Shown here one piece after another: positions 4,401 through 39,865 of a stretch of DNA of 64,000 nt. The DNA lies in the IMG/VR virus record IMGVR_UViG_3300014838_000016, positions 1 through 64,000 of that record; one strand, given 5' to 3'. Below the pieces are notes generated by a model. That model searched no databases. It had not been told where the DNA came from and was given only the letters and a program-made list of their open reading frames with translations. The stretch is from a virus. The position numbers and the translations under genes were made by a program. Every line of letters starts with the position of its first letter. The first letter of the stretch is position 1.

Positions 4401-6221
4401 CAGTTCCCAGTGGAGTACTTCGGCATCTATGACCCAGATGACGTTGTTACTTACTCATGGGCACAAACATCAGGCACCCCCGTTACCATCGTCGGTAGCT
4501 CGAATTTGCCGACGTTTACATTCAAAACGAATGGCATGGCGATACAGGGTGAGAGTCTCATATTTGAACTTACGCTTTGCGATGGGATTGGTTTCGCCCC
4601 TTGCACCACAGTCGAGTTCACGATTCCCGTCGCTGGGTACGATTTCTCGTGTTTTATCGACACCCTTCAGTTGTCGCGGTCGGTTTTCTCAAACAACATT
4701 TCCCAACGTAATTGTCAGGGGACGTGGGGAGATGTGGATATTTCAATTCTCTATAACGACCTCGCCGCCATCAAACGGAATTCGGTAAACGACGGCACTG
4801 ACCGCTACCTTGTGATTTCGCCCTACTCGGTACTCGTGTACGGCGGCATCTATTTGAGCAGCCAGAATCCCATGGTTCTGTTGCGGAAGTTGTTCACCCC
4901 TAACCAGACAAAGATCATAGACGCCGTTCATACCGAGGACGACTATACGCTGGTGCTCGATGAAGCAGGCAACGTGTTTCGTTACACCACAGCCGCCTTT
5001 ATTTACACGGATAATCCCGACACAGTAATCAACCTGTCAAGCATTTCCACATTCACGTTCAACCGCATCCTCTGCACATACAGCTACGCTAATCAGCGAG
5101 TTTTAATGTTCGGTGGACCCGATGGTGTCCTGCTTTTACAAGTCAGAAATGACACCTTGCAGACAACGGGAATCATGGAAATCGACGTTGCATCGAATCA
5201 GTTGTACGGAGCTAATAACGTGCAATTTATTCGTACCGTTGGCGTCGAAAGTCTACGTTCGGGGCAAATCTTGATTGGAAGCATTTTGAACGCACAGGCC
5301 AAAATCACAAGCATTGAGATCGTGAACAACACACTGACGGTGATTTGTGACAATAATTTCCAAATCGGCGATACTGTTATTTTGAATGGACTTCAGCCCT
5401 CGGGCTCCCCACCGTTCACCTCACCCCTGAACGGTCTCGGTGTTCAAGTCATCGCGGCAACAAACTTGTGGTTTCAAGCGTCAATTGTTTATCCAGACTC
5501 CACCGCTTGCACACCCGTGCCCCCAGCACCCGGCATAACCCTGAACATAACTTCGGTAGCCCCCACTGGTGGTGACTTCGCCATCTATACGGGCACAATC
5601 ACGGGTGGTGCTAATAACGCTTATTTTGGGCTCATGGCGACAATTTTGGGGTTCACGAATCCTACGAATAACGGGGTATTTCTTTGCTCAGGCTCCACCG
5701 CCACTACCATGACATTTAACAACGCGGCGGCGGTAACCGAAGGACCATCTCCCGGTACGGTTACGTTGGCCGTTACAGAGACGGGTACTGCAATCGCTAC
5801 GAACGACGGACAGACGTATGAAACCCTCATCAGCTTAGCTCAAGGGGTCATCATCGGTACGTGGAATTCTTCCAAGCTGAAGAATCAATTCGTGAACACG
5901 GGTGAAATCTTGTTTGATCCTAACAGCCAGTACACGGGCTACCCGTTACCTCCAGCCGATGTCACGGCTACCTCCAAATTCACCGCGAATGGAACCGTTG
6001 TGACCATCAGTTGGGTACAGCAGCGTTCCGACCTCGTGTCTTCGTACAACGTTCAGTATTCCACAGATGGAATCAATTTCCCCCAGCTTCAACTGGTGGG
6101 TTCTGGCAATATTCAAAGTATAAACGTACAGTTGGCACCCGGGACGTACTATTTCCGAGTTCAGGCGTTTTCATTGGACGGCACCTCGGATTTTTCAAAC
6201 GTGGCTACAATAACCATCTAA
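1428..6221 (+). CDS. giant Ig/FN3-like virion protein with ice-binding-like DUF3494 domain
   Basis: This is a very large beta-rich secreted or virion-type protein, probably a tail or surface adhesin. A TTG at 1428 gives 1597 residues; read from 1149 the frame would hold about 1690. Early in it is a module with the motif NATFLNG, which also occurs at the N-terminus of the fibre encoded at 44614-49122. The middle, at about bases 3532-4168, carries a full DUF3494 (ice-binding-like) domain, opening with LGSAANYALL and containing ITLDAQGDP and ANGAQASNVVW. Ig/PKD-like segments follow. The last 90 or so residues look like a fibronectin type III domain (ISWVQQ, YNVQYS, YYFRVQAFS). I see no enzymatic motif. 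The domain calls are good; the virion role is inferred from the context. Confidence 0.85.
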   Translation: MLHIIGTQNNAINSRYSDLIKFTFDTNTQTLSGPHILTTASAVRDGYDMVVLANGHRFIAVSVLDAEVPPLFQAPITFVSIATTGTPAETTLTITASNTFSEGQLATLTGLTNATFLNGVTVQVLDASPTQFTAAFTTNFPDYSAPDTGLATPFYSGENLLAFELDTSDNYVTGSLHIVASSPDRSGNTFSAVSLVTPDGLDIELYYGAHPKVYNFKDQLFTINLINRTTTLSPPVSGVWDAAPTNLFTFTSRYADDSLTVIPDLFGNRYLSWSFWTQSNHPEGLIGNVVLGTLQVGNPWLFSPIYGTSLNGSVVQATLSVTQFGSVSLAYLLEPFNLVTPIPAMGTFPAYPLYVATVTPTLGITNTAGWYNQQVFTWLRGTNVPLDDASTWAFVGEASRIIPVTNEVQTIPASGVVQVDNFSDTPFSNYWENVGVTYSQTGVPLVEVATAPAQGQYQVEPTNGLYIFNLADVGAGVQISYSYVGMILPVYVSLFNVPPIVGMEPPSSLCGPPLIVYRDTGSPLGQPVTLSAAGTVDPDQDAIEYWWSDNDTSGFVTLTPSGFWTLSDTSVLSVSPLIDRPAVAFNVGVAAVDLYLDLTTQRHPPLNVSAYQILNASPLMVEFTVSNTPVGNPPTNTPTLPLAIGEEVMTWNIMALSPPSIIQSLNDQLWYVTASTSTTFTAVPLCDMGGSPPSPPPPSPVTTELGSAANYALLAYSGITNADPSTSISGGVIGSAPIMSITGFNPPTATVDNADAPAARTAGNAAFLYYSGLTPTQTGLADLSTNDGGGGVGVYHAGVFSGGALDMPTSITLDAQGDPNAVFVFISASTTVLESGASIILANGAQASNVVWVVGSSFTSIWNGISSNMVGNILAYASITLGGGILDGRALAVGGGNGAVTIAVAEAVTVPASGPPPSPVIGVTGYAIPQFQFSVITVEVPYNAPPEIVFPSPVWEAVGSPPTSFILLEPVTVTRNTEITITPDAITNPAVQFPVEYFGIYDPDDVVTYSWAQTSGTPVTIVGSSNLPTFTFKTNGMAIQGESLIFELTLCDGIGFAPCTTVEFTIPVAGYDFSCFIDTLQLSRSVFSNNISQRNCQGTWGDVDISILYNDLAAIKRNSVNDGTDRYLVISPYSVLVYGGIYLSSQNPMVLLRKLFTPNQTKIIDAVHTEDDYTLVLDEAGNVFRYTTAAFIYTDNPDTVINLSSISTFTFNRILCTYSYANQRVLMFGGPDGVLLLQVRNDTLQTTGIMEIDVASNQLYGANNVQFIRTVGVESLRSGQILIGSILNAQAKITSIEIVNNTLTVICDNNFQIGDTVILNGLQPSGSPPFTSPLNGLGVQVIAATNLWFQASIVYPDSTACTPVPPAPGITLNITSVAPTGGDFAIYTGTITGGANNAYFGLMATILGFTNPTNNGVFLCSGSTATTMTFNNAAAVTEGPSPGTVTLAVTETGTAIATNDGQTYETLISLAQGVIIGTWNSSKLKNQFVNTGEILFDPNSQYTGYPLPPADVTATSKFTANGTVVTISWVQQRSDLVSSYNVQYSTDGINFPQLQLVGSGNIQSINVQLAPGTYYFRVQAFSLDGTSDFSNVATITI

Positions 6222-7714: not shown

Positions 7715-7954
7715 ATGACTCCGACACTACCAAAAGCGAATTTCACGCAAAGTGATGAATTCAGCCTGATCTCCCACAAGGAGTTGGCTACGCTTCTGCG
7801 GGAAACGGCGACCATGCTCGAACAGGGCGATCTAGCAGGCCGAGGCGGTGCTGTTATCGCTGTCGGCAAGATCGGCGAACCCGGGTCCATCAGGGTCGAT
7901 TTTGACTTCACTGTAGGTGGAGAAGTTCGCAGCATTGGCCTCGGAAGTAAGTAA
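7715..7954 (+). CDS. hypothetical protein, 79 aa
   Basis: This is a small soluble protein with an amphipathic helix near residues 20-40 (HKELATLLRETATMLEQG) and a beta-rich C-terminal half. It starts 2 bases after the preceding stop and ends 11 bases before the Rad50-like gene, so it is probably co-transcribed with both. It has no recognisable family. Confidence 0.65.
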   Translation: MTPTLPKANFTQSDEFSLISHKELATLLRETATMLEQGDLAGRGGAVIAVGKIGEPGSIRVDFDFTVGGEVRSIGLGSK

Positions 7955-7965
7955 CTCGGAACAAC

Positions 7966-8655
7966 ATGGATGCAGCACTGGTTTCGCGCATTGCTTCCGT
8001 CCGCTCTACTGTTGAACGTCTCGACCAACAGTTGGAGTATGAGGAGTCGTCGATACATCGTCTTACGGAAAGAATAAAAACCCTAGAGTCGGAAAAGGTT
8101 TTGTTGGTAAAAGCTGTCGGACTCATCGACCGCTGCATCCAAGTCATCTCAGCCAACGGCATCGGCAAGATCGAAAGCATCGTGAGCGACGGCCTGCGTC
8201 GTGTCTTTGATGACCCCACCTTGACCCTCGTTGTCGATAAGAAGTCGGGGGCACGAGGCAACACTTACAGCCTTCTGGTCAGTAAGGACGGCGGCGAGCC
8301 CTACGATCCAATGAAATCCTACGGCGGGGGCGTAGCAAATGTTGTGAGTCTTTTGCTACGTTTGATTTTGATAAAACGGTTTCGTCTAGCTAAACTCCTT
8401 GTGCTAGATGAGCAATTCAATAACGTGTCCGTTGATTACCTACCCGCTGTCTCGGCCCTTCTTAAAACACTGACGGATAGGCATGACTACACTATCTTAG
8501 CAGTAACCCACCAGCCCATTCTCGCACTCGAAGCTGACCGCATCTACCAATTACACACAGTTAATGGGTTTCCGACTTTGAGGACTATGGGTAAAGAAGA
8601 AATTTACGGAGCCATGCGTGATGCCTCGAAAACGGAAGAGCCCGATTCGCTTTGA
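7966..8655 (+). CDS. Rad50/SMC-type ATPase C-terminal half (no Walker A)
   Basis: This protein looks like the C-terminal half of a Rad50/SbcC/gp46-type ATPase, which acts in DNA end processing. Residues 1-60 form a coiled coil. An ABC signature-like SYGGGVANV starts at 118, Walker B LLVLDEQ is at 144-150, and a His-switch VTHQ is at 180-183. I see no Walker A P-loop in its 229 residues, so it cannot bind ATP in the usual way alone. It would need a partner lobe from elsewhere in the genome, or it may be regulatory. It lies in the replication run between small unknown genes. Confidence 0.75.
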   Translation: MDAALVSRIASVRSTVERLDQQLEYEESSIHRLTERIKTLESEKVLLVKAVGLIDRCIQVISANGIGKIESIVSDGLRRVFDDPTLTLVVDKKSGARGNTYSLLVSKDGGEPYDPMKSYGGGVANVVSLLLRLILIKRFRLAKLLVLDEQFNNVSVDYLPAVSALLKTLTDRHDYTILAVTHQPILALEADRIYQLHTVNGFPTLRTMGKEEIYGAMRDASKTEEPDSL

Positions 8656-10646: not shown

Positions 10647-10836
10647 CGAAGCACTGGCGAAAGTACACATGGCAATCATTTACATGGCGCAAGAAAGAGC
10701 GTTCGGACTGATTATCGATTTCCCTCCTGAAGTCAAGCATCTGGCGGACAAAAGGCTCGGTGATTTAACCGAGGAAGAGTGCGGACAATTGGCGAAAGCA
10801 GGCATGGAAGCCCACGCCAAAGCACTAGGGTTGTAG
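10633..10836 (+). CDS. hypothetical protein, 67 aa
   Basis: This is a small helical protein of unknown function. AAGAGG at 10621-10626 sits six bases before the ATG at 10633, so I prefer that start over the in-frame ATGs at 10606 and 10627. It ends 2 bases before the first GIY-YIG endonuclease gene. Confidence 0.6.
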   Translation: MAASNEALAKVHMAIIYMAQERAFGLIIDFPPEVKHLADKRLGDLTEEECGQLAKAGMEAHAKALGL

Positions 10837-10838
10837 AT

Positions 10839-11540
10839 ATGGGGCTGGTTTATCTCATCCGCAACAAAGTCACGGGCAAAGTCTATGTAGGCAAGACCAC
10901 TCGCACCGTGCTTCGACGTTGGACAACCCATATTTTCGCCGCCAAACGTGGAGAGCGTTCGAGATTCTATAACGCAATCCGTAAATACGGCAAAGATGCA
11001 TTTGAAGTAGAGATTTTAGGTAGCGCGTTGGATGGAGCCGCGTTGAATCGTTTGGAGATGGACTATATAGTGCTTTATGGTTCACGCAATCCTCAATGGG
11101 GGTACAACATAACGGTCGGCGGGGATGGGGCAGGTTCGGGACCTGACAACCCGAATTACGGAAAACCCGGTTCTAATCTGGGACGGAAATTTCCACCTGA
11201 GTTCGGTATAAACGTGAGTTTAGGAAAGAAGGGAATCAAGGTTTCCGAAGAGGCACGTCAGAACATTATCAACGGTTTGATGGGTCGCAGCCCAACGGAG
11301 ACTACGCGCCAGAAATTGGCTCAAGGGAAACTAGGTGCCCTCAATCCTAATTGGAAAAAACCTCATTCTACAGCATGGAAAGAGCGGAACAGCAAAACGT
11401 TTAAGGATCGAATTTGGATAAGTTATTTGGGCACGCCACTTGAAGTCAAACGAGTAAAATCTTCAGAGCTACAGCAGTATCTTGAGAAAGGTTGGGTACA
11501 AGGACGATGGAACCGAAGAGTACGCACATTGTCGAAATAG
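10839..11540 (+). CDS. GIY-YIG homing endonuclease
   Basis: This is a site-specific DNA endonuclease of the free-standing homing type. The N-terminal catalytic domain shows the VYLI...VYVGKT pair at residues 4-21, then a conserved Arg (RRW) and a Glu (RLEMDYI near residue 72). The C-terminal half contains NUMOD-like DNA-binding repeats (GRKFPPEFG, SEEARQNI, TETTRQKLAQGK). The 233-residue protein is complete. It lies directly before an RNA ligase gene and overlaps its start, which suggests the endonuclease moved in at this spot. Confidence 0.9.
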   Translation: MGLVYLIRNKVTGKVYVGKTTRTVLRRWTTHIFAAKRGERSRFYNAIRKYGKDAFEVEILGSALDGAALNRLEMDYIVLYGSRNPQWGYNITVGGDGAGSGPDNPNYGKPGSNLGRKFPPEFGINVSLGKKGIKVSEEARQNIINGLMGRSPTETTRQKLAQGKLGALNPNWKKPHSTAWKERNSKTFKDRIWISYLGTPLEVKRVKSSELQQYLEKGWVQGRWNRRVRTLSK

Positions 11541-14239: not shown

Positions 14240-14869
14240 ATGGGAATTAGTCACTTGGCGATAGTTTATCTCATTGAGAACTCGCTTAATGGCAAGGTTT
14301 ATGTTGGAAAGACGGAGCGAGGACTGCTAGCTAGGTGGAAACAGCACATTAAGGCCGCAGAAAAGGGCAGTTCACTGTTGTTACACCGAGCTATTTGTAA
14401 GCATGGTGTGGAGAATTTTACCGTTAATGCCCTGTGTGAAGTCCCAGTTGTAGGGTTGAATGAAGCCGAACGGATGTATATCACCCAGTACAAATCCTAC
14501 CCACCCAACCGAGGTTTTGGGTATAATATGAGCCCGGGAGGGGATGGTGGGGTAGAGATAGGGAAAATTTCTGGAAGCCGCCCTCGGTCTGATCGTCAGA
14601 AAGAACAGACCCGTAAGTTGAATGAGTTGCAGCGACAGCCGATTTCCGATGAGACACGTCGTTTATTGAGTGAGTGGCAGCGAGGGGATAAGAATCCACG
14701 TTTCGGTAAGAATTATGTTATGCCAAAATCGACAAAACAAAAGATCGCTGAAGCCCAATTACAGGTCTACCGTGACCCACAAATGCGTCTTAAACAATCC
14801 ACAGCACAGAAAAAACGAGTATTGAGTAATGAAGCGTTGCTAAGAATATGCAGGTATTACCAAACCTAA
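14240..14869 (+). CDS. GIY-YIG homing endonuclease with a frameshifted C-terminus
   Basis: The catalytic GIY-YIG domain is intact: AIVYLIENS and VYVGKTERG are followed by LARWKQH and NEAERMYI. NUMOD-type DNA-binding repeats follow (SDETRRLLSEWQRG, PKSTKQKIAEAQL). The frame stops at 14869 with an odd ending (RICRYYQT). In the +1 frame, from about 14844 to the TGA at 14964-14966, the text reads as one more NUMOD repeat (KPKSTKTRQRMSASAK) and ends one base before the next gene's ATG. A single indel near 14841-14853 therefore seems to have cut the last 38 or so residues. The catalytic part may still work. Confidence 0.85.
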   Translation: MGISHLAIVYLIENSLNGKVYVGKTERGLLARWKQHIKAAEKGSSLLLHRAICKHGVENFTVNALCEVPVVGLNEAERMYITQYKSYPPNRGFGYNMSPGGDGGVEIGKISGSRPRSDRQKEQTRKLNELQRQPISDETRRLLSEWQRGDKNPRFGKNYVMPKSTKQKIAEAQLQVYRDPQMRLKQSTAQKKRVLSNEALLRICRYYQT

Positions 14870-14967: not shown

Positions 14968-16170
14968 ATGTTTTCACGTTCCAATTGGGCAGTATTCGGC
15001 ATCAAGCAGTCCACAGAACAAGCTGTCATCGACGGTCTTGGTGACTTCCCTAGTCAGGAAACAGCCGTTGAGAAAGCCAAGGCGGACAAAATTCCGACCT
15101 TCGGTATCAACCCATTTGCACAGCCCCGTTTGGACGAGAACGGCTCTCTTGGAATCATCACCAGCAAGGACTTCCAACTAAGCGACCACGCTTACGGATT
15201 CTGGCTCTGCCTCAATAACCAGAAAGATGTAACCGACGCCGCCTCGAAGAAAGAACAGATTGCTTACGACGAGATGGGCAAGCCATTCAAGTTTCTAAAC
15301 AAGGAGGAGAAGGCGGCTGTCGAACTGGCGGTCACCGCATCCGCCGTTGTGGAGCGCAAGCAGTTTCCAGTGCTCGTGGACTTCGCGAACGAACGGGTCT
15401 ACGCCGCCGCTACAGCCGAGGAAGACGTTGAAACGGTTCGGGCCGTCTTACAGGAACTCGGAGCCGAAACCTTTGCCGTCGCGTGGCAATTCGGCGGTTA
15501 CGATTGGGTGACTAGATTCCTCAACATCGTCAACGAGAAGACGAAATTCGTTGATGAAATGGCGAGTCGAGCCGAAGAACTCCAGCGTTTCCGCAAGGAT
15601 GAGATCGAGAAGATGGACGACAAAGCGATGGAAAGCATCGTCAGCAACTTCTACGCCCTGAGCGAATTGGAAACAAGTCAATGGTGCGGTCTCACCACAC
15701 CTGCCCGCATTCGTATGTATAAGCCCGCCGACCCCATAGGAACAGCAGGGCCTAGTCTGACGTTCAGCCTTCTGCGACTCAGCGATGATTCGGAAGTGGC
15801 GGCATCCGCCGTGGTCTTCCAGTCCCTCACTTCCAAATTCATCAAGAAAACGGATGAAGAGAAGCAGGTCCGCAAGGATTTATTCACCCTCGATCTGAAC
15901 GACAACATCAATCTATTGGAAGCGGGTGCGGGATTGCTTCGTGGCTTTGATTTGCCGGGATTCAAGAAAGAGATCAAGACGGCAATTAAGGCGCAAACCT
16001 CTCCGCTGGAGATTTCTGATTACTGGAAGCTCTGGCTTACAGACATGCGGGAAGCTGTCGCCATGTTTGTGGACAACGTGACCGAGACCCTCGGCCTTGA
16101 CAAAAAGAAGTTTGGCTTGCTTCCCTTTACGGAAGAGAGCTTACCGAAAGAGACCGTGGAGGTCGCATGA
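14968..16170 (+). CDS. RdgC-like exonuclease/recombination-associated protein (tentative)
   Basis: This 400-residue protein has features reminiscent of RdgC, a ring-forming DNA-binding protein that modulates RecA. These are an N-terminal strand-rich region, a segment QFPVLVDFANERVYAAA followed by a helix, and an acidic second half. The match is weak and RdgC is usually shorter (about 300 residues). It is followed by a coupled 89-residue protein (ATGA overlap). Its place between a homing endonuclease and a Nudix gene fits nucleic-acid metabolism. It could equally be an unknown phage protein. Confidence 0.4.
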   Translation: MFSRSNWAVFGIKQSTEQAVIDGLGDFPSQETAVEKAKADKIPTFGINPFAQPRLDENGSLGIITSKDFQLSDHAYGFWLCLNNQKDVTDAASKKEQIAYDEMGKPFKFLNKEEKAAVELAVTASAVVERKQFPVLVDFANERVYAAATAEEDVETVRAVLQELGAETFAVAWQFGGYDWVTRFLNIVNEKTKFVDEMASRAEELQRFRKDEIEKMDDKAMESIVSNFYALSELETSQWCGLTTPARIRMYKPADPIGTAGPSLTFSLLRLSDDSEVAASAVVFQSLTSKFIKKTDEEKQVRKDLFTLDLNDNINLLEAGAGLLRGFDLPGFKKEIKTAIKAQTSPLEISDYWKLWLTDMREAVAMFVDNVTETLGLDKKKFGLLPFTEESLPKETVEVA

Positions 16171-18775: not shown

Positions 18776-20167
18776 ATGAACCTCATCGCCCAACGGCCTA
18801 ATTTTTGGAATGAAGTGGTAGGACAGCCACGTTCGATCCGGGTTCTCCAAGCCATCCTGAACAACAAGCACTTGATGCTCCGAGGATTCCTCTTCCATGG
18901 TTTCATTGGCGTTGGTAAGACTACAACATCCTACCTGTTGGCTCGTGCCCTCATGTGCAATGGCGATGATCCCCTCGGTTGTGGTAAGTGTGACTCCTGT
19001 CTCAGGATAGCGGAAACTGGAATTGATAGTCACTCCGACTTTAAGGAAATCGACGCCGCCCTGTATTCGGGAGTGGACAAAGCTCGCGAAATTATGGAAC
19101 TTTGGGGCACCCAAACTCCAAATTTCAGTAAACGTCGGGTCATAGTGATTGATGAGGCCCACCGCCTTAGCTCCGAGGCTTGGGATGTATTCCTCAAGCC
19201 ATTGGAACAAGGAAACTTTCGCACGAGCATCATCTTTGTGAGCAACAAGGTGGATACCATCGCGGGCACCATCAGGAGCCGCTGTACCCAGATTCCTTTC
19301 GAATTAGTTCACCACGATACCATCGTTGGTTTGCTGGCAAATGTCGCCAACCGTAACAACATCACCTACGAATTGGACGCCTTGCGGTTGATTGCCCGTC
19401 AATCCAAAGGTATCATCAGGGATGCGATCAACGTTCTCGGCTCCGCAGCCGCTCTCGGGTTGGTGAGTATTGAACATGTCAAGCTCATCCTCGATACGAG
19501 CCTCGAAGACGTATGCATCAAGCTCATGCTGGCTATCGCGGCGAAAAACCAAGCGACGGCGATTCAACTGGCGGATGAGGTCGGTAGGAAGGCCCGTCCA
19601 GCCAAAGTGATTGAGATGATGTTCAGTATCTACGGCAGGGCGGTATTCGCCGAATCCGACCCCGGCATCCTGCCAATCTACGTGGGACTGCCTGAAACGG
19701 GGGATGTCACCGCCCTGTTCATCAAATGGGCTACAACGCCCAACCTACCATCCAATATCATGCCTCTGGTAGCGTTTGAGCTTCTGAAGCTCCACGGCTC
19801 CCCAGCCGAGAGGAAAGCCCGCCAGCGGGCTCAGAAAGCGCAGGGCGGGGCATTGGGAAGCACGGCGGGCACAATCAAGGAGCTTTTGCGTGTCGCACCG
19901 CCTGAGGGCGTGGCAGCGGAAGACATCCCTCCGACTAAGCCGTCAGAGATGCCCGATGCCATCACGCCTCAAGTGGCAGCGCCCGAAGAGATCGCGGCGT
20001 TCCTGAGCGACGAACCTGAGGATGTGATGCTGGACGGTCCCGTGAAAGACATGGTGGAAGTGGCTGCCAAGGGCATCATTGTCGAAGAGAATGAACCCGT
20101 AGCCGCCGAGCGGCATGTCTTCGTGCCATCTGGCGATGCTGAGGGGTATGAAGATGAGCCAATGTGA
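18776..20167 (+). CDS. dnaX: DNA polymerase III gamma/tau-like clamp loader ATPase
   Basis: This 463-residue AAA+ protein should load the sliding clamp onto DNA using ATP. The Walker A motif GFIGVGKT is at 42-49. A zinc module has Cys at 61, 69, 72 and 75. Walker B VIVIDEAH is at 122-129, and the arginine-finger motif SRC is at 168-170. AAA+ lid and collar domains run to about residue 330, and an acidic low-complexity tail follows, as in tau-type extensions. It has its own leaderless-type promoter. Most large phages use the gp44/62 type, so a bacterial-style DnaX is notable. It would partner the clamp-like protein encoded at 6248-7294. Confidence 0.93.
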   Translation: MNLIAQRPNFWNEVVGQPRSIRVLQAILNNKHLMLRGFLFHGFIGVGKTTTSYLLARALMCNGDDPLGCGKCDSCLRIAETGIDSHSDFKEIDAALYSGVDKAREIMELWGTQTPNFSKRRVIVIDEAHRLSSEAWDVFLKPLEQGNFRTSIIFVSNKVDTIAGTIRSRCTQIPFELVHHDTIVGLLANVANRNNITYELDALRLIARQSKGIIRDAINVLGSAAALGLVSIEHVKLILDTSLEDVCIKLMLAIAAKNQATAIQLADEVGRKARPAKVIEMMFSIYGRAVFAESDPGILPIYVGLPETGDVTALFIKWATTPNLPSNIMPLVAFELLKLHGSPAERKARQRAQKAQGGALGSTAGTIKELLRVAPPEGVAAEDIPPTKPSEMPDAITPQVAAPEEIAAFLSDEPEDVMLDGPVKDMVEVAAKGIIVEENEPVAAERHVFVPSGDAEGYEDEPM

Positions 20168-21423: not shown

Positions 21424-21615
21424 CTACGACCTAATCGGCTCCAAGATTATCCGTATCCTAAACCCAGACAGTTCGATTACCCCCTCCGCAGCTTGGAGGG
21501 GGGTTTTCTTGCATTCAGGGCATTTCTTGGCAGGCCCGCCCAAGAAAGCGTGACCGACAGGACATGTGCGGGGCTTGACGCCGCTATTCTCTTTGCCCCA
21601 CTCTTTTCGATCCAT
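21424..21615 (-). CDS. possible zinc-ribbon protein, 63 aa
   Basis: On the minus strand a short frame reads MDRKEWGKENSG and then CPVGHAFLGGPAKKCPECKK, a plausible zinc ribbon. It runs through the terminator hairpin at 21480-21510, and the surrounding genes lie on the other strand. It could be a chance frame in an otherwise empty 260-base gap. Confidence 0.3.
   Translation of the reverse strand: MDRKEWGKENSGVKPRTCPVGHAFLGGPAKKCPECKKTPLQAAEGVIELSGFRIRIILEPIRS
21480..21510 (+). terminator. rho-independent terminator
   Basis: CCCCCTCC (21480-21487) pairs with GGAGGGGG (21495-21502) around a seven-base loop, and TTTTCTT follows. It ends the single-gene unit at 20425-21414. Confidence 0.9.
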
Positions 21616-21661: not shown

Positions 21662-21669
21662 AGTATTAC
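21662..21669 (+). promoter_or_regulatory. extended -10 promoter (CAGTATTAC), leaderless type
   Basis: AGTATTAC ends five bases before the ATG of the NusG-like gene at 21675. No ribosome binding site is present. Confidence 0.65.
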
Positions 21670-21674: not shown

Positions 21675-22991
21675 ATGGTACTTGAATACGGCGATACCAA
21701 CAAATTAAAGGGTGTGCGGTGGTACATGGCTGAGTTGCGAAGCGACAAGACCGTGGAGCCGACCATGAAGCGACTGGGAAGAGAAGTCGGGGGCATATTC
21801 CGTGAGGAGCCCCTCGAAGTCTTCATCCCCGTCCAAAGACGTGACCTCGATGTCTTCGAACTCGGCACAGTGCAGTACGTGTTCGTTCGCAGCACCAGCT
21901 TCCCCGCCCTGTTACGTCTCAAACAGATCACGGGCATTTGCGGTCTGGTGACCGAGGGCGATTGCAACCGTCCATCCAAAGCCATCTTTGTAGACGACTC
22001 CTACGTTCAAAGCCTCATCTCCCTAGCCGAAGAAGAGCATCGGCAGCGAGCGATAGGGATCGAGGTCGGTAGCTTTGTCCGCATCCTGAATGGCGAGTGC
22101 CGCGATTTCTGTGGCGTTGTGGAGGTCATCGGCGATGGTTCAGCGATGGTCCGTATCACCCTCCGCACCAAGTACATTCTGCAAGAAACCCCGATCCGCA
22201 ACCTCTTGAATCAGCCTAACGTCCCCGAGAACCGCAAGGTCTATTACTATGGCCCGATGGTGGATGCCCTTTTCGATGAACTGGGTGAGGAGATCGCGTC
22301 GGCGTTGATCGCAGAGGATTTGCATCTGGACGAGACCATGCCCACGGTCGAGGTATTGGAAGAGCAGGCTAAAGAGCCGAAGCGTCACTCGCGCCAACGC
22401 ACGGTGACCGCCCTCGTCAAAAAGCTCGTGCTGATCGAGGGTAAGCACAATCCGCTGGAGATCGCCAAGGTTGTGATGCAGAACCTCAAATCAGGGGAGA
22501 TCAAGGCCCCGAAGAACCTGTTCATCATCTACTGCATCATCAAAGATCGGTTGATGAAGGACTACTTCAAGAAGCAGGACCCCGAGCTTAACACCTATCG
22601 CGACGTGATCCACAAGCACGGCAAGGAATTCAAGTTTTCTGCCAATCAAATCGCTAAATTGGATACTGAGTGCAAAATCCCAGTATTAACCCAAGAAGTC
22701 TGCAAAGACGGGCGTTCAAAAGAGGCCCGCAAAGGCAAGGACATTAAAGAGGTCGCCGCGACTGAGGTCAAGGTCGTCGAAAAGAAAACCCGAGGCCCGA
22801 AGAAGCGTAAGAAGTTGGGCACCGATACGTGCAACACCTGCTACCACACACGATCAGAGCATAAGGTCACCTCGAAGGGTAGCTGGGGTCGGTGCGGTGG
22901 GACCAGCAACCACAAGATTCATTCATGGGTTGCCAAGAACTACTCAGGCCCATGCACCTGCGTTCGGTTTAAGGAGCGGGCAACGAAGTAA
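21675..22991 (+). CDS. NusG-like transcription elongation factor with C-terminal zinc extension
   Basis: NusG-family proteins bind RNA polymerase and control pausing, termination or antitermination. Residues 13-118 resemble an NGN domain (GVRWYMAELRS, VFIPVQRRD, VQYVFVRS). Residues 129-178 form a KOW domain (VGSFVRILNGECRDFCGVVE). Ordinary NusG is about 180 residues; this protein has 438. The extra part is a helical domain (about 240-330), a Lys-rich linker and a Cys/His cluster near the C-terminus (CNTCYHTRSEHK, CTCVRF) that could bind zinc or nucleic acid. It has a leaderless-type promoter and stands apart from its neighbours. It may redirect host RNA polymerase to phage genes; that role is inferred. 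Confidence 0.72.
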   Translation: MVLEYGDTNKLKGVRWYMAELRSDKTVEPTMKRLGREVGGIFREEPLEVFIPVQRRDLDVFELGTVQYVFVRSTSFPALLRLKQITGICGLVTEGDCNRPSKAIFVDDSYVQSLISLAEEEHRQRAIGIEVGSFVRILNGECRDFCGVVEVIGDGSAMVRITLRTKYILQETPIRNLLNQPNVPENRKVYYYGPMVDALFDELGEEIASALIAEDLHLDETMPTVEVLEEQAKEPKRHSRQRTVTALVKKLVLIEGKHNPLEIAKVVMQNLKSGEIKAPKNLFIIYCIIKDRLMKDYFKKQDPELNTYRDVIHKHGKEFKFSANQIAKLDTECKIPVLTQEVCKDGRSKEARKGKDIKEVAATEVKVVEKKTRGPKKRKKLGTDTCNTCYHTRSEHKVTSKGSWGRCGGTSNHKIHSWVAKNYSGPCTCVRFKERATK

Positions 22992-28912: not shown

Positions 28913-29638
28913 ATGAGACGCGGCCTGATGCTGTTCGCAGTACTGTCGCTGGTGCCATTCGCTGGTGCCGTGCGGGTCGTCGTCCGCCGCCCACCCGTCC
29001 AAGTTGGCTGGCGGCACAAGCGTAAACCAAAACTCCTTCTTTATCGAGCGTTCCCACCCACCCATGAATCCTTAGTGCTTCAGAACGCCGAGGCGAACCG
29101 TCTGGGACTCGAACGATACGCCGACAACAAGGCGATGGATGCGGCCATCGAGCGAGAAGAGTTGGTGCCCCTGCCCCTGAGCGTCAGCTTGGCGGTTGAC
29201 AGGCGGCTGGACCCGAAGCGGCGGTATTGCCGCCCGTGGGTCGCCGCGTTTCTGACCGACCTGAGTGACGCTTTCTACCGAGAATACCACCAGCCCCTTC
29301 TTATAGACTCGGCTGTCCGCACGGTGAAAGTCCAGCGGAGCCTATTGCGGTGGAACAAGAACGCTGCCCCCGCGCATGGAGAACTCGAATCGGTTCACAT
29401 TGCGGGGATTGCCGTGGACATCGCTCGCCGTCCGTTGACCGGCAGCCAGATTCGTTGGTTGGAATGGCGGCTACTTTACTACCATGCATTGGGACTGGTG
29501 ATCGCCGAAGAGGAACTCAAGCAGCCGTGCTTCCACATCGTTGTCAGCGGGGATTACCCAAATGGTTCAATTGGTGTACAATTGATTGAGTCGCCCGTGA
29601 CGGTCGATACGATACCTGAGGAGGAACTGCCGCAGTGA
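28913..29638 (+). CDS. secreted M15-like (DUF5715-type) peptidase, likely endolysin
   Basis: This should be a cell-wall peptidase that cuts peptidoglycan cross-links. An N-terminal signal-type segment (LMLFAVLSLVPFAGA) would export it. The catalytic domain shows the M15/DUF5715 pattern: SVHIAGIAVDI at 160-170 (His162, Asp169) and CFHIVV with His208 as metal or active-site residues. A signal-bearing lysin could work without a classical holin. It is the first gene of a cluster with a tiny lipoprotein next to it and a membrane-anchored protein further on, which fits lysis. Its exact bond specificity is unknown. Confidence 0.78.
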   Translation: MRRGLMLFAVLSLVPFAGAVRVVVRRPPVQVGWRHKRKPKLLLYRAFPPTHESLVLQNAEANRLGLERYADNKAMDAAIEREELVPLPLSVSLAVDRRLDPKRRYCRPWVAAFLTDLSDAFYREYHQPLLIDSAVRTVKVQRSLLRWNKNAAPAHGELESVHIAGIAVDIARRPLTGSQIRWLEWRLLYYHALGLVIAEEELKQPCFHIVVSGDYPNGSIGVQLIESPVTVDTIPEEELPQ

Positions 29639-32356: not shown

Positions 32357-33052
32357 TTACCCCTGCATGAATGGCGGCATTTGCCACCAGCCAGAACCAG
32401 CGTTGCCTGCTGTTGGGGCGTAAAACGCCATTCCCATGCAGTGCCAAGAGGACTGGTTTTGGGTAAAGTCGGCACTGACTGCACCGTTGACGTTCAACTG
32501 ATATTCGCTCATGTCGCCGTTTTGGATGCCGCCCGGAGCGCCCGTCCAACCTCCCAATGTGCCGCCTGCGGTTGGAGCGGTGATGGTTCCGCCTGAACCT
32601 GCCGCCATATAGACAAGGGAATTGGCGAAGTTGGGCGTGATGGTTGGCCCGTTAACGGTTGTGCTGCCCGGGCTGGCAAGCTGCTGTGCGGCGTCTTGGT
32701 CAAATTGCCACGCACCATCGGCGTGAAACTCATCAACGTACATGACCAAGTTCGAACCCGTCGTCCAAGACGCCGTTACGGTCGAACCCGACGTTGAGGC
32801 TGCATTGAGGTTGTAGAGCAAATAGGTACTCGCCGTGAAGCCCGTGAGAACCGTGGGGGAATGGGGTGTGAGGACGTAACTGAAGCTGCTACCGTCTGTT
32901 ACGGTCAATGCAGTCACAGCTAACGCCATCTGAATCGCGACGAGGACAAGGTTGCCAGCGGTGATGGCACTGCCCAGCGTGACGGACATGGTTGTGACCG
33001 TCGCAGGAGCTACGTTGAAGTTGCCCCCGCCCTGTACGTGATTCATCGCCAT
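32357..33052 (-). CDS. virion/fibre-associated protein, 231 aa
   Basis: A beta-rich Thr/Ser/Gly/Ala-dominated protein typical of tail-tip or fibre parts, with no enzymatic motif. It starts on the stop of the large repeat fibre gene (TAATG), so the two are made together. The end GSGWWQMPPFMQG is aromatic, like the tips of some receptor-binding proteins. The role is inferred from composition and neighbours. Confidence 0.6.
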   Translation of the reverse strand: MAMNHVQGGGNFNVAPATVTTMSVTLGSAITAGNLVLVAIQMALAVTALTVTDGSSFSYVLTPHSPTVLTGFTASTYLLYNLNAASTSGSTVTASWTTGSNLVMYVDEFHADGAWQFDQDAAQQLASPGSTTVNGPTITPNFANSLVYMAAGSGGTITAPTAGGTLGGWTGAPGGIQNGDMSEYQLNVNGAVSADFTQNQSSWHCMGMAFYAPTAGNAGSGWWQMPPFMQG

Positions 33053-36000
33053 TAGCTGTTATCCTCTTCCCACTCGTAACTTACGGTAACAGTCTGGGTT
33101 GCGATGACGGCTCCAAGGTTGATGCAAAGCTGCTGAGCTACACCACGCAGGACGATGCAAGCAGCCCCACCGCGAGTACCGAAGTCCCAAAGCCATGTGT
33201 TGGCACCCGTCGTCGCGTTGGAATCGTCGAAGAACTGGATACCGCGAATTGTGCCAACGGCGGTGCCCAAGGTCGGAGCAGCCGTGTAACGGAGCGGGGC
33301 GGCTGAGGCGGCGGCATAGGCGCTGTCGTGAGGTACTGCGGTCATCGCTGCGGAAGTTCCACCCGTGTCCGCCGCTGAACGCTTGACCAACGTAACCGCT
33401 TCCACGCCAGCCGTGCCACTGGTGCTCATGGAGACTTCCACGCGGGTGATACGGATGGTCTTCGAGGCTGAACCCGGAAGCACGGCGATGTCGCCAGCGA
33501 CAGGGGTGAAAGTGGCGAAGCAAGAATAGGTTTGCTTACGACCTTCGATGTTGACATAGAGTGCGCCCGTGGTGTCAGACTGTAACGCCCCGGCCTGCCC
33601 TGCTGTAAGAACAAGTGGCGTGGTGTTGTACTCTGCGGATGTGAGGAGAGCATTCGTTGGAGCAGTTGCACCACCAGCGGCGGAATCCACCGAAGCTCCA
33701 GTGCCGCCTGAGATGCCGACCTTCTGGACGCCAGCGGATGCGGCGACCGCAGCTACCGTGCCGATGAACAGGGAAGAGTTGACGCTTCCAGCGATCACTG
33801 CTCCCGGAGTTGTACCGAAGTTTGCGGGTGCGCCGAGGGCAGTGCCAGCCCATGCTTGCACGTCACTATTCAAAGCACCATGCAAATCTGTAACAGGCAG
33901 AACTTGGTCACCAGTTGTGTAGGTGATGGTGCTGTACGCGGTTTCAGCGACGGCGGGTAATACGCCTACGTTGAAAGCGTTTGGAGCGGCGTTGTTATTT
34001 GTGAGGTTGCCTTGGAACGACCACGGAGCCCCACCTTGCTGTACGGTCCACGTACCAGACTGAGTGACGGCTACAGTTCCAGTGATGGTTGTAGAGGCGA
34101 GCGAGACTACCCATGGAGACGTGGATTGGGTGACAGCGACCGTGCCGCTGACTGTGACCGCAGGGGAGTTAGTGATGAAAGCGTTGACAGCGGGGACAGG
34201 TACCGCCGCAGGCGAGCCGCCGTAATTGACAACAGCGGTTGCGCCCAATGCCGTACCAGCCACAGCTTGTAAATCTTGGTTAAGAGCACCATGCAAATCG
34301 GTGACAGGCAATACCATGTCGCCAGTTGCATAGGTGACGGTGCTGTATGCAGTCTCAGCAATCGCAGGGAGGACGCCAAGGAGTGTCGCCGTGGGAGCCG
34401 CATTGTTGTTGGTAAGCGCACCGTCCACGGCAACCGTACCCGTGATCGTGGTAGACGCTAGCGAAACAACCCATGGGCTCGTGCTCTGGGTGACGGCCAC
34501 TGTTCCAGTGATGGCTGTAGATGCAAGTGAAACGACCCAAGGAGATGTGCCTTGGAAACAGTAGGCATTGACACCAATGACTTCTTCACCCGTTGGAGCG
34601 GTTGCCCAAATTGTCGGACCACCAAGAGCCGTACCAGCAAGAGCTTGCAAATCAGTGTTGACAGCGCCGTGCAGGTCAGTGACAGCCAAAACTTGGTTGC
34701 CCGTGGTGTAGGTGTTGGTCGTGTATGCAGTCGCGGCGAGGTAGCCGAGGCTGCCTTGGTTGTTGGCGGCAGGCGCAGCGGTGTTGTTCGATAGGTTTCC
34801 GCCGGGGAATCCAGTGACGTTGACGTTCAACGCACCACCCGTATTCGTCAAGGCGGTCGTACCAGAGAACAAGGAAGCATTGACTGCTGGAACGTTGACG
34901 GCAGCGGGTGCCGTGCCGAAAGCAGTTACAGCCGTTGCACCAAGCTGAACTCCAGCAACAGCTTGTAAGTCTTGGTTCAAAGCGCCGTGCAAGTCTGTAA
35001 CGGGCAATACCATGTCGCCCGTGGTGTAGGTGACAGTGTTGTACGCAGTCTCGGCAATTGCGGGGAGGACACCCAACAGTGTTGCAGTTGGAGCCGCGTT
35101 GTTATTGCTCAATGCGCCGTCAACGGCCACTGTGCCCGTGATAGTTGTAGACGCGAGAGACACAACCCAAGGGGACGTACTCTGGGTGACAGCGACCGTG
35201 CCTGTGATGCCAAAAGTCGTCGGGAAGTTCGTTACGTCAACGTAAATTGGGTTGCCTAAAGCATTCGCCGCAGTGGTAGCGGAGATCGGCACAGGTGCCG
35301 TACCCGATACAGCGTTCTGACCAACGAAGAGTTCCGCGTTGACCGCAGGAACCAGAACGGACGTTGCAGGAGCGGTACCCCAATCAGTAGGTGCTGCGAT
35401 GGTTGCGGTTACAGTACCGCTCACTACCCAAGGAGAAGTCGATTGCGTTACGGCTACAGTGCCAGTGATTGTTGTTGAAGCCATCGTCACAGGCACAGTG
35501 TTAGTGATGAAAGCGTTGACCGCAGGCACATTTACGGCGGCAGGCGTGGAACCATAACCTACGACGGCTGTGGCACCTAATGCGACTCCAGCAACAGCCG
35601 CCAAATCGCTGAACAGAGCACCGTGAAGGTCGGTTGCGGGTAGAACTTGGTCGCCAGTCGTATAGGTAAGGTTTGTGTACGCGGACTCAGCGATGGCTGG
35701 TAGGACGCCGACGTTTGTGGTGTTGGGAGCGGCATTGTTGTTGGTGAGTGTTCCAACGAATGACCATGGTGCCCCACCCTGCTGTACGGTCCACGTACCA
35801 CTTTGAGCAGCTTGTACGGCGAAGGTTCCCGCGTTGGTGACAGCGATAGTTTGACCAGCCGAAATCCCGACTGTCCAAGCGCCCGACTGCGTGACGGCGA
35901 CCGTCCCAGATACGGCTACGGTCCCGCTTACGACCCATGGCGAAGTTCCTTGGAAGCAGTAGGCGTTGACGCCTTGAACTTCCTCACCAGTTGGGGCAGT

Positions 36001-36939
36001 CGCCCAAATCGTAGGACCACCGAGTGCCGCACCAGCTAGTGCTTGCCAATCGACGTTCATGGCACCATGAAGATCGGTGACGGGGAGGACTTGATCGCCC
36101 GTCGTGTAGGTGACGGTTGCATACGCAGTCTCAGCGATTGCTGGCAATACGCCGAGGTTGAAGGCGTTCGGTGCTGCGTTGTTATTGGTGAGGTTTCCAG
36201 CGACCGTGCTGCTCGTTGGATTGACCACGTTGACGTAGATTGGATTGCCAGCGTTGTTTGCCGCAGTTGTAGCCGAGACAGGAACAGGCGATGCCCCAGA
36301 CACGGCGTTCTGACCCACAAACATTTCGGCATTGACGGCTGGAACCAACACATTTGTGGCCGGTGCAGTACCCCAATCTGTGGGTGTGGGAATAGTTACG
36401 GACCACGGAGCCCCACCTTGCTGTACGGTCCATGTTCCAGATTGAGTTGCGGCTACAGTCCAAGCGCCTGATTGAGTGACAGCAACAGTTCCCGTTACCC
36501 CTACTGACCAAGCCCCACTTTGGATGGCGTTTACAGTCCAAGTTCCGCCCTGATCGGCGACAATCGTGCCGCTTACGACCCATGGCGATGTGCATTGAGT
36601 GACACATATCGAGGCGTTGCTGATGGCGACGGTGCCGCTTACAACCCATGGCGAGGTAGCTTGCGTGACGGGAAGCGAGGACTCAGTGAAGGTGACGGTC
36701 AGCGGATTGACCACGTTGACGTTTAATGCCTCAACTGGCGGGCTTCCAGCCAGTGTTGCGGTGAGGGCTGTGCACGATCCAACGAAGAGCGAGGCATTGA
36801 CGGGGATTGCGGCTGTAACGCTGGAGCAGCAACCTACGTCGGGGCAGGTGCCAAACGCGCTCGGAGGGCTGAGTGGGGTGTTATCCCACTGCGTTATGTT
36901 GCCCGAAAACGATAGACCAAATGGGTTTTGAACTGGAAT
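33052..36939 (-). CDS. long repeat tail-fibre protein, non-canonical start likely
   Basis: This is a fibre-type protein built from many near-identical modules. TSPWVVS occurs about eight times, GTWTVQQGGAPWS three times and TDLHGA six times, each within larger units of about 80-100 residues. The C-terminal domain of about 150 residues (starting near TGALYVNIEGRK) is shared with the protein at 43367-44605. The first canonical start is a GTG at 36714, yet clear coding continues upstream to a stop at about 36973. The only start fitting a ribosome binding site (AAGGGAGAG) is an ATT at 36937-36939, which gives 1295 residues. Confidence 0.8.
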   Translation of the reverse strand: MPVQNPFGLSFSGNITQWDNTPLSPPSAFGTCPDVGCCSSVTAAIPVNASLFVGSCTALTATLAGSPPVEALNVNVVNPLTVTFTESSLPVTQATSPWVVSGTVAISNASICVTQCTSPWVVSGTIVADQGGTWTVNAIQSGAWSVGVTGTVAVTQSGAWTVAATQSGTWTVQQGGAPWSVTIPTPTDWGTAPATNVLVPAVNAEMFVGQNAVSGASPVPVSATTAANNAGNPIYVNVVNPTSSTVAGNLTNNNAAPNAFNLGVLPAIAETAYATVTYTTGDQVLPVTDLHGAMNVDWQALAGAALGGPTIWATAPTGEEVQGVNAYCFQGTSPWVVSGTVAVSGTVAVTQSGAWTVGISAGQTIAVTNAGTFAVQAAQSGTWTVQQGGAPWSFVGTLTNNNAAPNTTNVGVLPAIAESAYTNLTYTTGDQVLPATDLHGALFSDLAAVAGVALGATAVVGYGSTPAAVNVPAVNAFITNTVPVTMASTTITGTVAVTQSTSPWVVSGTVTATIAAPTDWGTAPATSVLVPAVNAELFVGQNAVSGTAPVPISATTAANALGNPIYVDVTNFPTTFGITGTVAVTQSTSPWVVSLASTTITGTVAVDGALSNNNAAPTATLLGVLPAIAETAYNTVTYTTGDMVLPVTDLHGALNQDLQAVAGVQLGATAVTAFGTAPAAVNVPAVNASLFSGTTALTNTGGALNVNVTGFPGGNLSNNTAAPAANNQGSLGYLAATAYTTNTYTTGNQVLAVTDLHGAVNTDLQALAGTALGGPTIWATAPTGEEVIGVNAYCFQGTSPWVVSLASTAITGTVAVTQSTSPWVVSLASTTITGTVAVDGALTNNNAAPTATLLGVLPAIAETAYSTVTYATGDMVLPVTDLHGALNQDLQAVAGTALGATAVVNYGGSPAAVPVPAVNAFITNSPAVTVSGTVAVTQSTSPWVVSLASTTITGTVAVTQSGTWTVQQGGAPWSFQGNLTNNNAAPNAFNVGVLPAVAETAYSTITYTTGDQVLPVTDLHGALNSDVQAWAGTALGAPANFGTTPGAVIAGSVNSSLFIGTVAAVAASAGVQKVGISGGTGASVDSAAGGATAPTNALLTSAEYNTTPLVLTAGQAGALQSDTTGALYVNIEGRKQTYSCFATFTPVAGDIAVLPGSASKTIRITRVEVSMSTSGTAGVEAVTLVKRSAADTGGTSAAMTAVPHDSAYAAASAAPLRYTAAPTLGTAVGTIRGIQFFDDSNATTGANTWLWDFGTRGGAACIVLRGVAQQLCINLGAVIATQTVTVSYEWEEDNS

Positions 36940-37079
36940 TAGAGTCTCTCCCTTTGAGCCGCTCGTCTTGCTTCAGACCACGGCTTTCCTTTTGCCCTGA
37001 GTAAGTAAATTATCATGTTCAGTTTGTTCCCATGGTGTGGGACATCAAAACGCTCTCTTATTAGGGATTACATAGTCTT

Positions 37080-37862
37080 TTACTGGAATTCCTGAATGCT
37101 CAACAGCGCACAAAAAGTGGGCGGACTACCGCAACAATTATCGGTGTACGAAAGCCCACTATCGGCTATGGCGTTCACCGCAGCGGTCGTGAAATCACTA
37201 CTATCCATCCAAAACGTGCCTCCGGGTGCCAGCGTGATCCCAGCAAAGAGGATGGCTGGATTGCTACCAAAAGCAATGCTCATCGTGACGTAAGACATAT
37301 TCGTCAAATTCAGCCCCTTTCTTGAGGGGTTCGACGCCAATATAACCGTCGATGATGTGTTCACGCATATAGATTCAGGTGCATTGGCGACAGTGGCGGT
37401 CTGCGGGCAACAGGGGGGTGCGGTGGTGACGAACGAATCCGCCGAGTAACCGAAGACCACCGAACCGCAGACGGGCGGGCTTCCACAGGCTGTTCCCGTG
37501 ATCGGACTGAGGAGGATGACCTGAAAATACGGTATGGCGGTGAGGTTGAATTCAGCCGCTAGAAAGGTATTAGCTTGGAGATCGTAAACTGGGCCGACCG
37601 CCCCGCCGATTCCCGGCACATAACCCGTGAGGGGGAACCAGTTCACGCCATCGGTGCTGCCTTGGAACTGAACCGCTCCACCAGTGATGCAGCCTTGATC
37701 TAGGGTGACGATTAGGGTGTTGTACGAGTAGTCGTTGTTTACTATTGTGGCCGTCGTACTGACTGGCGTGGCGCATTCCCATGGCGGAAATGTCGCACCA
37801 CATTGAGTGTTTTCGCCGACACTCAGAACTGCGGAAATACTGTATTGTGACTCGACGTGCAT
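37080..37862 (-). CDS. virion protein, 260 aa, Cys-containing beta-rich
   Basis: A beta-rich protein with several Cys pairs (CGSPPVCGS, PPCCPQT, DNCCGSPP) unusual for cytoplasmic phage proteins. Segments such as VQFQGSTDGVNWFPLTG resemble carbohydrate-binding or Ig-like phage modules. GGGG ahead of the ATG acts as ribosome binding site. It lies upstream of the repeat fibre gene in the same direction and is probably part of the same host-contact apparatus. Confidence 0.6.
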   Translation of the reverse strand: MHVESQYSISAVLSVGENTQCGATFPPWECATPVSTTATIVNNDYSYNTLIVTLDQGCITGGAVQFQGSTDGVNWFPLTGYVPGIGGAVGPVYDLQANTFLAAEFNLTAIPYFQVILLSPITGTACGSPPVCGSVVFGYSADSFVTTAPPCCPQTATVANAPESICVNTSSTVILASNPSRKGLNLTNMSYVTMSIAFGSNPAILFAGITLAPGGTFWMDSSDFTTAAVNAIADSGLSYTDNCCGSPPTFCALLSIQEFQ

Positions 37863-37942
37863 TCTAATCCCCTATAAATGGGCGGCAAAGCTTAAAAACG
37901 TGCGAACCGTCAAAATCCTAATTTTATTGAGAAAATGAGAGC

Positions 37943-38092
37943 TTACCTCATGCAGTTGCACAATTTTTCCTTGCGCTTGGTGGTCGCTTTACGGGCATCC
38001 GCACACGTGTTACAGTGATAGGTCACACTGCCATCTTGGTTGTAGACACGCCATTGAGCTTGTTGACCGCACGAACATATTACTTTTGCCAT
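37943..38092 (-). CDS. small zinc-ribbon protein, 49 aa
   Basis: The protein starts MAKVICSCGQQAQW and has CNTC and a final CNC, giving a compact zinc ribbon with a Lys/Arg-rich stretch between. It overlaps the glycosyltransferase end by 13 bases. A role in nucleic-acid binding is possible. Confidence 0.55.
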   Translation of the reverse strand: MAKVICSCGQQAQWRVYNQDGSVTYHCNTCADARKATTKRKEKLCNCMR

Positions 38093-38733
38093 AGCTTTTG
38101 AATTGTCTCCCATGATTCGGGTTTGTAGTCCTTGCTCAGGTGCTTCCTGCAAGCATTGGCCGTATGGATCGCCGCTACGACCAAGGCAGGATCGTTCAGA
38201 TCGTACCTCGCTGCAACAGGCGTCTTCTTTTGAAAATTGTAGTCGGCTCCCGAGTTGATGTTGTCGAACTTGTTTTTCTCCCAAGCGGATTTGCGTATCG
38301 CGATAGATGCCATCCATCCGATCCCTTTTGGACTCGTGTATCGGTACGCCAACGCGCTGCCGTGCTGGTAGTAGTAGAGGGTGCTCGTCCCCGAGACGTG
38401 CAGTGCGGGGTTCTCAATGAGCGGTGTGATCTGGCGGGTGATTCGATTCGCTGGGTACCAGTCATCGTCATCCCAAATAATTCCGAATTCCCCGCTCGAT
38501 AGCTCAAAGCACCTATTTATTTTCGCCCCATGATGTTTTTTCGGGCTTTCATGGAAATATTTGACCCTCGGGTCGGCGGGCAGGAGGTCTTGAATTGGTT
38601 CCGCACCGTCATCCAATATGATTAGTTCGAGGTTGGGGTAGTCCTGAGAAAGAAAACACTCTATGGCCCGAGGAAAGAATGCCCTACGGTTGAAGGTTGG
38701 CGTCAGTGCGCTTACGAGGGGAAAATCAGACAT
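38080..38733 (-). CDS. glycosyltransferase family 2
   Basis: GT2 enzymes transfer a sugar from a nucleotide-sugar donor. The N-terminus shows the GT-A fold pattern (VSALTPTFNRR), then LIILDDGAEP. The metal-binding acidic motif WDDDDW lies at about residues 87-92. The 217-residue length fits a minimal soluble enzyme with no membrane anchor. Lying among fibre genes, it may glycosylate virion proteins or modify the host surface; that target is inferred. Confidence 0.88.
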   Translation of the reverse strand: MSDFPLVSALTPTFNRRAFFPRAIECFLSQDYPNLELIILDDGAEPIQDLLPADPRVKYFHESPKKHHGAKINRCFELSSGEFGIIWDDDDWYPANRITRQITPLIENPALHVSGTSTLYYYQHGSALAYRYTSPKGIGWMASIAIRKSAWEKNKFDNINSGADYNFQKKTPVAARYDLNDPALVVAAIHTANACRKHLSKDYKPESWETIQKLWQK

Positions 38734-39565
38734 GGCATAACCTACAATTTGGGTTGATTATCCCACGCCTGACATGCCAACGAATATGACTAGCGGCTCG
38801 TCCGCCTAAGACCGTAATACGAGCTAAGTGTCCATTTTCAATGTTCTTTCGTCCTTGAGCACGTCCTAAAGATTGTATATGCCCATTTTCGACATTCTTA
38901 CAGCCTTGAATACGCCCAAGCTCTTGTATGTGCCCGCTTTCAACATTCTTGCGTCCCTGAATAGGGCCACTAATTCGTCCGCCAATACTGCCGCCGACAT
39001 GACCGAACTTGGACCGTTGTTCTGGTGTAAGCGAAAGGGCGGCTAGTCGGCGTATCCTATCCAAGTGTCCACTTTCCACATTCTTGCGATGTAGAGCTTG
39101 CATGTGCCCGCTTTCAACATTCTTGCGTCCTTGGATGCGCCCGTTTTCAGCGTTCTTGCGCCCTAAGGCTTGTATTTGCCCGCTCTCAGCGTTTTTGCGC
39201 CCTAACGCTCTAGTTTTCTCAACTAATTTCACCCTGCCCCTTTCATAGATTTCGGCGTAGCGAGGCAACTCATCCACGGCTACCTGATAAACACTTTTCC
39301 TGTTCGCCATGAGATAGAACACCTTCTCAAATTCTGAAGCACACATCGCCAACCAGTAGTGAGCCCTGAAATGGTCCGCAGGCGATACCCGCATGATGTT
39401 GCTTGTATCCCTAGTTAATTCAGGGAATTCTTTCCTCGGGAGGATGTGGTGCTTGTGCCCTACGCTTGCTTTCGACAAAGACTCGATGAATGTAAAGTAT
39501 AATGTGAAGTCCACGTCGGGGAAACGGACGGACAAAATTTCACGAAGATGTATGGGAACGGTCAC
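38726..39565 (-). CDS. HNH endonuclease with tandem NUMOD-like repeats
   Basis: The N-terminal part has an HNH core: HKHHILPRKEFPEL, then NIMRVSPADHFRAHYWL. The C-terminal two thirds consist of about nine copies of a 10-14 residue motif around RKNVESGH with IQALG spacers. It ends in a His/Cys segment. Such repeats are taken to read DNA in homing nucleases. The start is a GTG at 39565, right after the upstream stop. It overlaps the glycosyltransferase by 8 bases and is probably mobile. Confidence 0.82.
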   Translation of the reverse strand: MTVPIHLREILSVRFPDVDFTLYFTFIESLSKASVGHKHHILPRKEFPELTRDTSNIMRVSPADHFRAHYWLAMCASEFEKVFYLMANRKSVYQVAVDELPRYAEIYERGRVKLVEKTRALGRKNAESGQIQALGRKNAENGRIQGRKNVESGHMQALHRKNVESGHLDRIRRLAALSLTPEQRSKFGHVGGSIGGRISGPIQGRKNVESGHIQELGRIQGCKNVENGHIQSLGRAQGRKNIENGHLARITVLGGRAASHIRWHVRRGIINPNCRLCHV

Positions 39566-39566
39566 G

Positions 39567-39860: not shown

Positions 39861-39865
39861 ATTGG

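Follow-up and report, generated by a model that had tools for sequence, protein, structure and literature searches.

A phage NusG-like protein with an additional conserved helical domain, encoded close to a DNA polymerase clamp loader gene

Results

The NusG-like gene and its neighbourhood

The analyzed window covered 64 kb from the start of a viral contig of 87.7 kb. The NusG-like gene was located on the plus strand at positions 21675-22991 and encoded a protein of 438 amino acids, relatives of which were found in IMG/VR and in the phage Tunturi_5. The open reading frame started with ATG, and this start was supported by the fact that all relatives began at the same M(I/V)L..G position. When residues 240-438 were compared with the 97%-identical copy of locus L001, 43 codon differences were counted, all of them synonymous. 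Hence, the reading frame is under strong purifying selection, and this holds for the parts added to the NusG core as well.

The protein consists of an NGN domain, a KOW domain, a conserved helical domain, a Lys-rich linker and a zinc-type module. The original prediction had described the region behind the KOW domain as a single extension of about 250 residues with a Lys-rich linker and a Cys/His cluster. All of these elements were present, but they made up three parts rather than one; the folded and conserved helical domain (residues 240-336) had been overlooked, and so had the restriction of the Cys/His module to one branch of the family.

Two conserved neighbours were recognized upstream on the same strand: a gene for the clamp loader of DNA polymerase (18776-20167; phrog_5846, E 6e-42) and, by comparison of loci, a gene for a 400-aa protein (14968-16170), whose Tunturi_5 homologue was annotated as exonuclease/recombination-associated. 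In most loci in which both sides were present, the NusG-like gene was preceded by the clamp loader and this in turn by the 400-aa protein, and the linkage to the clamp loader persisted down to about 22-26% clamp-loader identity. The clamp-loader and NusG-like genes overlapped by 1-4 bases in Tunturi_5, L023, L024 and L025. A small gene and a 329-aa ORF were inserted between them in the window, and a GIY-YIG-like ORF in L001. A terminator-like hairpin of 9 pairs with a T-rich tail, a candidate from a consensus scan only, was located upstream of the NusG-like gene (21480-21502, plus strand). No Rfam family was found at 15-30 kb of the window.

Several other features were recorded in these regions. 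Genes of GIY-YIG-type homing endonucleases were present in the window at 10779-11540 and 14240-14869, and the L001 NusG-like gene was flanked by a GIY-YIG-like ORF (5266-5838, minus strand) and an HNH-like ORF (7821-8333). A DUF5715 protein (28913-29638; Pfam E 2.6e-19) with weak endolysin similarity was encoded in the window and also near the NusG-like gene of L014. Proteins of 1523, 844 and 1220 aa with many diverged internal repeats were encoded on the minus strand at 33052-49185, the 1523-aa protein matching tail-fibre families.

Promoter-like elements

A putative -10 element, AGTATTA, was found at 21662-21668 (plus strand), 6 nt before the ATG of the NusG-like gene, an arrangement pointing to a near-leaderless start. 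A similar one was observed upstream of the L001, L007, L008 and L018 homologues. In the window, elements of this type peaked 12-13 nt before the starts of ORFs (9 of 128), and sites of this class adjoined the NusG-like and clamp-loader genes among others. The strict form, AGTATTA or AGTATCA separated from the ATG by exactly 6 nt, occurred at window positions 7298, 18763, 21662 and 39873 (minus strand) and at contig position 73247.

A second, repeated promoter-like element of ~45 bp had the form A(A/T)TCCTA(T)CG(T)TTT - about 14 nt - TTTTGGGTATAATAGG. Its copies were located at 14522, 49366, 56409 and 62908 on the plus strand and at 28784 on the minus strand of the window, and at 69065 and 71635 (plus strand) of the contig. 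The element mostly ended 4-6 nt before an ATG (15 nt in one copy), which implies leaderless or nearly leaderless mRNAs; an SD-like stretch was present in 56 of the 128 ORFs. The unusual promoter set invoked by the original prediction was real in that TATAATA and GTATTA classes adjoined start codons, but its tie to the NusG-like protein came down to one site before the protein's own gene.

NGN and KOW domains

The NGN domain was assigned to about residues 1-125 (21675-22049) and the KOW domain to about residues 127-180 (22053-22214), based on profile alignment, AlphaFold2 modeling and a Foldseek search. When a 12-member NGN+KOW profile of the family was aligned by hhalign to a six-member NusG profile, a match of 96.5% probability was obtained (E 8.4e-10, score 66.5, 162 columns). 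The best of 40 column-shuffled controls reached a score of 24.2 and at most 5.3%, and the reversed control 0.5%; judged from these sequence profiles, the match is far above chance. Sequence identity to NusG in the profile alignment was about 19%, and the FPGY signature of NusG was replaced by FELGTVQYVFVR in the phage protein.

The AlphaFold2 model built from an alignment of 20 sequences had a pLDDT of mostly 85-94 over residues 1-180, with the KOW region modeled as beta strands forming a barrel, a result that is not decisive on fold switching. A single-sequence model was discarded (pLDDT 33). In a Foldseek search of the PDB, 27 chains were recovered at E <= 1e-3, all of them NusG, RfaH or Spt5 by entry; the named viral top matches included phage NusG and RfaH. 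Whole-chain TM-scores were low because the relative placement of the domains was uncertain (pTM 0.46).

Searches with the single sequence stayed below threshold. The window protein alone found no PHROG family, its best PDB sequence was T. maritima NusG at E 0.03, below the threshold, and the Pfam NusG model PF02357 gave a misplaced hit of 15 bits, short of its cut-off of 22.2, and no match on the protein's own contig. The missed Pfam threshold is a limit of model sensitivity and not a structural feature of the NusG/Spt5 family. Among the members, 14 of 20 matched phrog_6386 (transcription antiterminator) weakly, the best at 3e-5; this family was confirmed as NusG by E. coli NusG, which matched it at 3e-39. 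The KOW5_SPT5 match of Pfam reached up to 8e-5 in family members.

Based on the agreement of profile, predicted structure and fold search, it was concluded that the predicted two-domain architecture is of the NusG/Spt5 type. The NGN and KOW domains named by the original prediction were thus borne out, and the structure comparison with NusG and RfaH that it had proposed recovered the NGN fold.

The helical domain and its inteins

The helical domain, residues 240-336 (22392-22682), was delimited from the A8 alignment and modeled with a pLDDT of about 80-88. By both alignment and codon comparison it was as conserved as the NusG part. The domain had no PDB match by sequence and did not resemble the NusG profile (0.2%), and in the phage collection it was found in Tunturi_5 only; as far as sequence comparison reaches, it is restricted to the NusG-like family of these phages. 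A bL21 match of the C-terminal half was dropped, as it vanished with a larger profile.

Two inteins with a LAGLIDADG endonuclease were present, in L011 (6001-8397) and in L012/L013 (3847-6114 and 4737-7004), at one identical site. The L011 intein matched LAGLIDADG_3 at 3.6e-9 and Intein_splicing at 3.8e-5, and that of L012 matched more weakly. The insertion point lay before the Cys of APKNLFI(V)Y^C(I/V)(I/V)KD, the most conserved motif of the helical domain; in the intein-free window protein it corresponds to Cys287 (22533-22535) in APKNLFIIY^CIIKD. Inteins tend to occupy functionally critical positions, which suggests that this motif is important.

The linker and the zinc-type module

Residues 341-382 (22695-22820) formed a Lys-rich linker, predicted to be disordered (pLDDT < 50). 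It was followed by a putative zinc-type module, residues 386-432 (22830-22970), modeled with low confidence and recognized by a conserved Cys5His3 pattern (C386, C389, H391, H396, C407, H416, C427 and C429) that was kept in the window and in 7 other loci. The members with this module made up one side of one tree branch (support 93/97), a distribution that would fit a single gain or loss. The zinc tail used alone as a query retrieved nothing from the phage collection.

Relatives

A single annotated relative was recovered by tblastn, gp25 of Tunturi_5, which was 46% identical and labelled 'transcription antiterminator'. Tunturi_5 is a 309-kb myovirus (jumbo phage) of the acidobacterium Tunturiibacter, and gp25 is not mentioned in the paper on it. 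Profile scans of IMG/VR yielded 23 loci on contigs of up to 463 kb, and a scan of MAGs added one short contig that had been binned as Geobacteraceae. About 20 relatives, that of Tunturi_5 included, were counted in phage contigs. The members had roughly their 340 N-terminal residues in common, the remainder being variable. No relative was found in a plasmid search, and Caulobacter phage matches (E = 5) were treated as chance. The NusG-like frame of L017 (6001-7190) was broken twice at homopolymers, probably by indels of the assembly rather than by biology.

The opinion that phages seldom carry NusG was broadly fair, but precedents do exist. E. coli NusG matched 46 records of the phage collection, some of which were host DNA; records with NusG beside secE and rplK (e.g. 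MaAM05) were of that kind and were not counted. The precedents were cyanophage S-CRM01 g104, Rhizobium phage PPF1, Sinorhizobium phage phi3LM21 and huge phages, so phage NusG is already known as a kind of protein. A search of the open-access literature for 'phage NusG' and similar phrases returned nothing, and there seems to be no earlier description of the jumbo-phage lineage with three domains, of its zinc branch and inteins, or of its linkage to the clamp loader.

Discussion

We consider it likely that the protein is a phage-specialized NusG paralogue that works on host RNA polymerase and suppresses pausing and termination without recruiting Rho. In NusG, the loop I164-F165-G166 contacts Rho, and it is lost in RfaH (PMC7593976). 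Nearly all members of the phage family had L, K/R and T at the aligned positions (L163-R164-T165 in the window protein), and this altered loop makes a Rho-blind NusG-like factor of elongation and antitermination the likeliest reading. A bacterial-type RpoB domain was not found in 4 records, although divergent phiKZ-type subunits might escape the models, nor a bacterial-type RpoC domain in 10 records, most relatives being fragments. The T7-type RNA polymerase model gave no match, but its built-in controls gave none either. Sigma-70 region 2 was detected in three relatives, including Tunturi_5. The sigma factors, together with the lack of a recognizable phage RNA polymerase in the sampled relatives, would fit the use of host RNA polymerase.

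Of the two roles in the original prediction, antitermination, or control of elongation on host RNA polymerase, is the better supported one, and we infer it from the altered Rho loop, the relatives' sigma factors and the lack of a recognizable phage polymerase. Less likely is a role in switching host RNA polymerase to phage promoters, since elongation, and not promoter choice, is the step at which NusG/Spt5 proteins act.

The following mechanism was proposed, in which polymerase binding, antitermination, blindness to Rho and whatever the helical and zinc parts may do are all inferred. The NusG-like gene would be expressed along with the replication module. NGN domains attach to the beta' clamp helices and the beta gate loop (PMC7819879), and the phage NGN domain would dock there on the elongation complex of the host polymerase. 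Pausing and termination would be suppressed on long phage transcription units. As the KOW domain would carry no Rho-recruiting loop, the phage protein in place of host NusG may shield phage transcripts from Rho. Further contacts, be it with the polymerase, with nucleic acid or with a phage partner, may come from the helical domain and, in one branch, also from the zinc module.

The neighbourhood of the gene allows a different reading, in which the protein couples replication to transcription, the NGN domain sitting on the elongation complex and the helical domain on the clamp or clamp loader. Most relatives have the clamp-loader gene directly in front of the NusG-like gene, and in several the two overlap; this linkage survives great divergence, and the helical domain equals the NusG part in conservation. 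Simple co-expression would also explain the adjacency, no clamp-binding motif was identified, and one or two genes intervene in the window's branch; we regard the coupling as unlikely. Its stronger form, a physical bridge between the host polymerase and the clamp or clamp loader of the phage by which replication would license elongation, is slightly less probable still. T4 late transcription depends on the gp45 clamp via gp33/gp55. A clamp link, if true, would be a NusG-based counterpart of it, by analogy only, since gp33 and gp55 do not have a NusG fold.

It is also rather improbable that the KOW domain, besides or instead of antitermination, recruits ribosomes to leaderless phage mRNAs without SD elements, as RfaH might suggest. 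Genes controlled by RfaH likewise have no SD elements (PMC7819879), and the -10-like elements 12-13 nt before the starts of several phage genes, the NusG-like gene included, point to near-leaderless mRNAs. The family kept an aromatic residue at position 145 (NusG F144) and a basic one at 166 (NusG R167), but the positions of NusG F141 and F165 were not aromatic, and SD-like stretches were not rare in the window.

We give still less weight to a host-takeover role, in which the protein would displace host NusG and disturb host transcription, with loss of Rho-dependent termination and coupling, rather than serve phage operons. The NGN fold implies that the protein would compete with host NusG for the clamp helices, and the Rho loop is altered, but the large conserved extra domain, like the linkage to replication genes, points to a function dedicated to the phage. 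Least probable is an NGN/KOW-shaped nucleic-acid-binding protein for replication or recombination: the location in a replication module, the low identity to NusG and the missing FPGY would allow it, but no other family reached comparable scores in the fold search, and the alignment spanned all of NusG with the KOW domain directly behind the NGN domain, an arrangement that, to our knowledge, occurs only in NusG/Spt5 proteins.

The proposed Rho-blind NusG paralogue can be placed among known systems. Its orthologue, Tunturi_5 gp25 (XOB77468.1), has the same NGN-KOW-helical layout and directly follows the clamp loader, but at 344 aa it is without the Lys-rich linker and the zinc module. Housekeeping NusG of E. 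coli, T. maritima and Aquifex shares the NGN and single KOW with a matching fold over the 162 aligned columns, whereas it has neither helical domain nor zinc tail, possesses FPGY and the I164-F165-G166 loop, both changed in the phage family, and is encoded in a secE-nusG-rplK context instead of beside a clamp loader. As with RfaH and other specialized NusG paralogues (NusG-SP), the phage protein would be a second NusG beside that of the host, with the Rho loop lost; the extra helical domain sets it apart from them. RfaH has an alpha-helical autoinhibited KOW, where the phage model gave a beta-barrel and no evidence of a fold switch, and is recruited at a specific DNA site (ops). The weakly matching NusGs of phrog_6386 (S-CRM01 g104, PPF1, phi3LM21 and huge phage LR756501) are likewise phage-borne, but at about 180-220 aa they have no extra domain and are closer to bacterial NusG.

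No transcription factor other than NusG is universally conserved, and the specialized copies of NusG decide which foreign genes escape Rho. The conserved jumbo-phage lineage, with a domain of its own, a changed Rho loop and a clamp-loader neighbour, is a testable case of how large phages without a recognizable RNA polymerase may keep the host polymerase running on phage genes. As the isolated pair of Tunturi_5 and Tunturiibacter carries an orthologue, the lineage is open to such testing.
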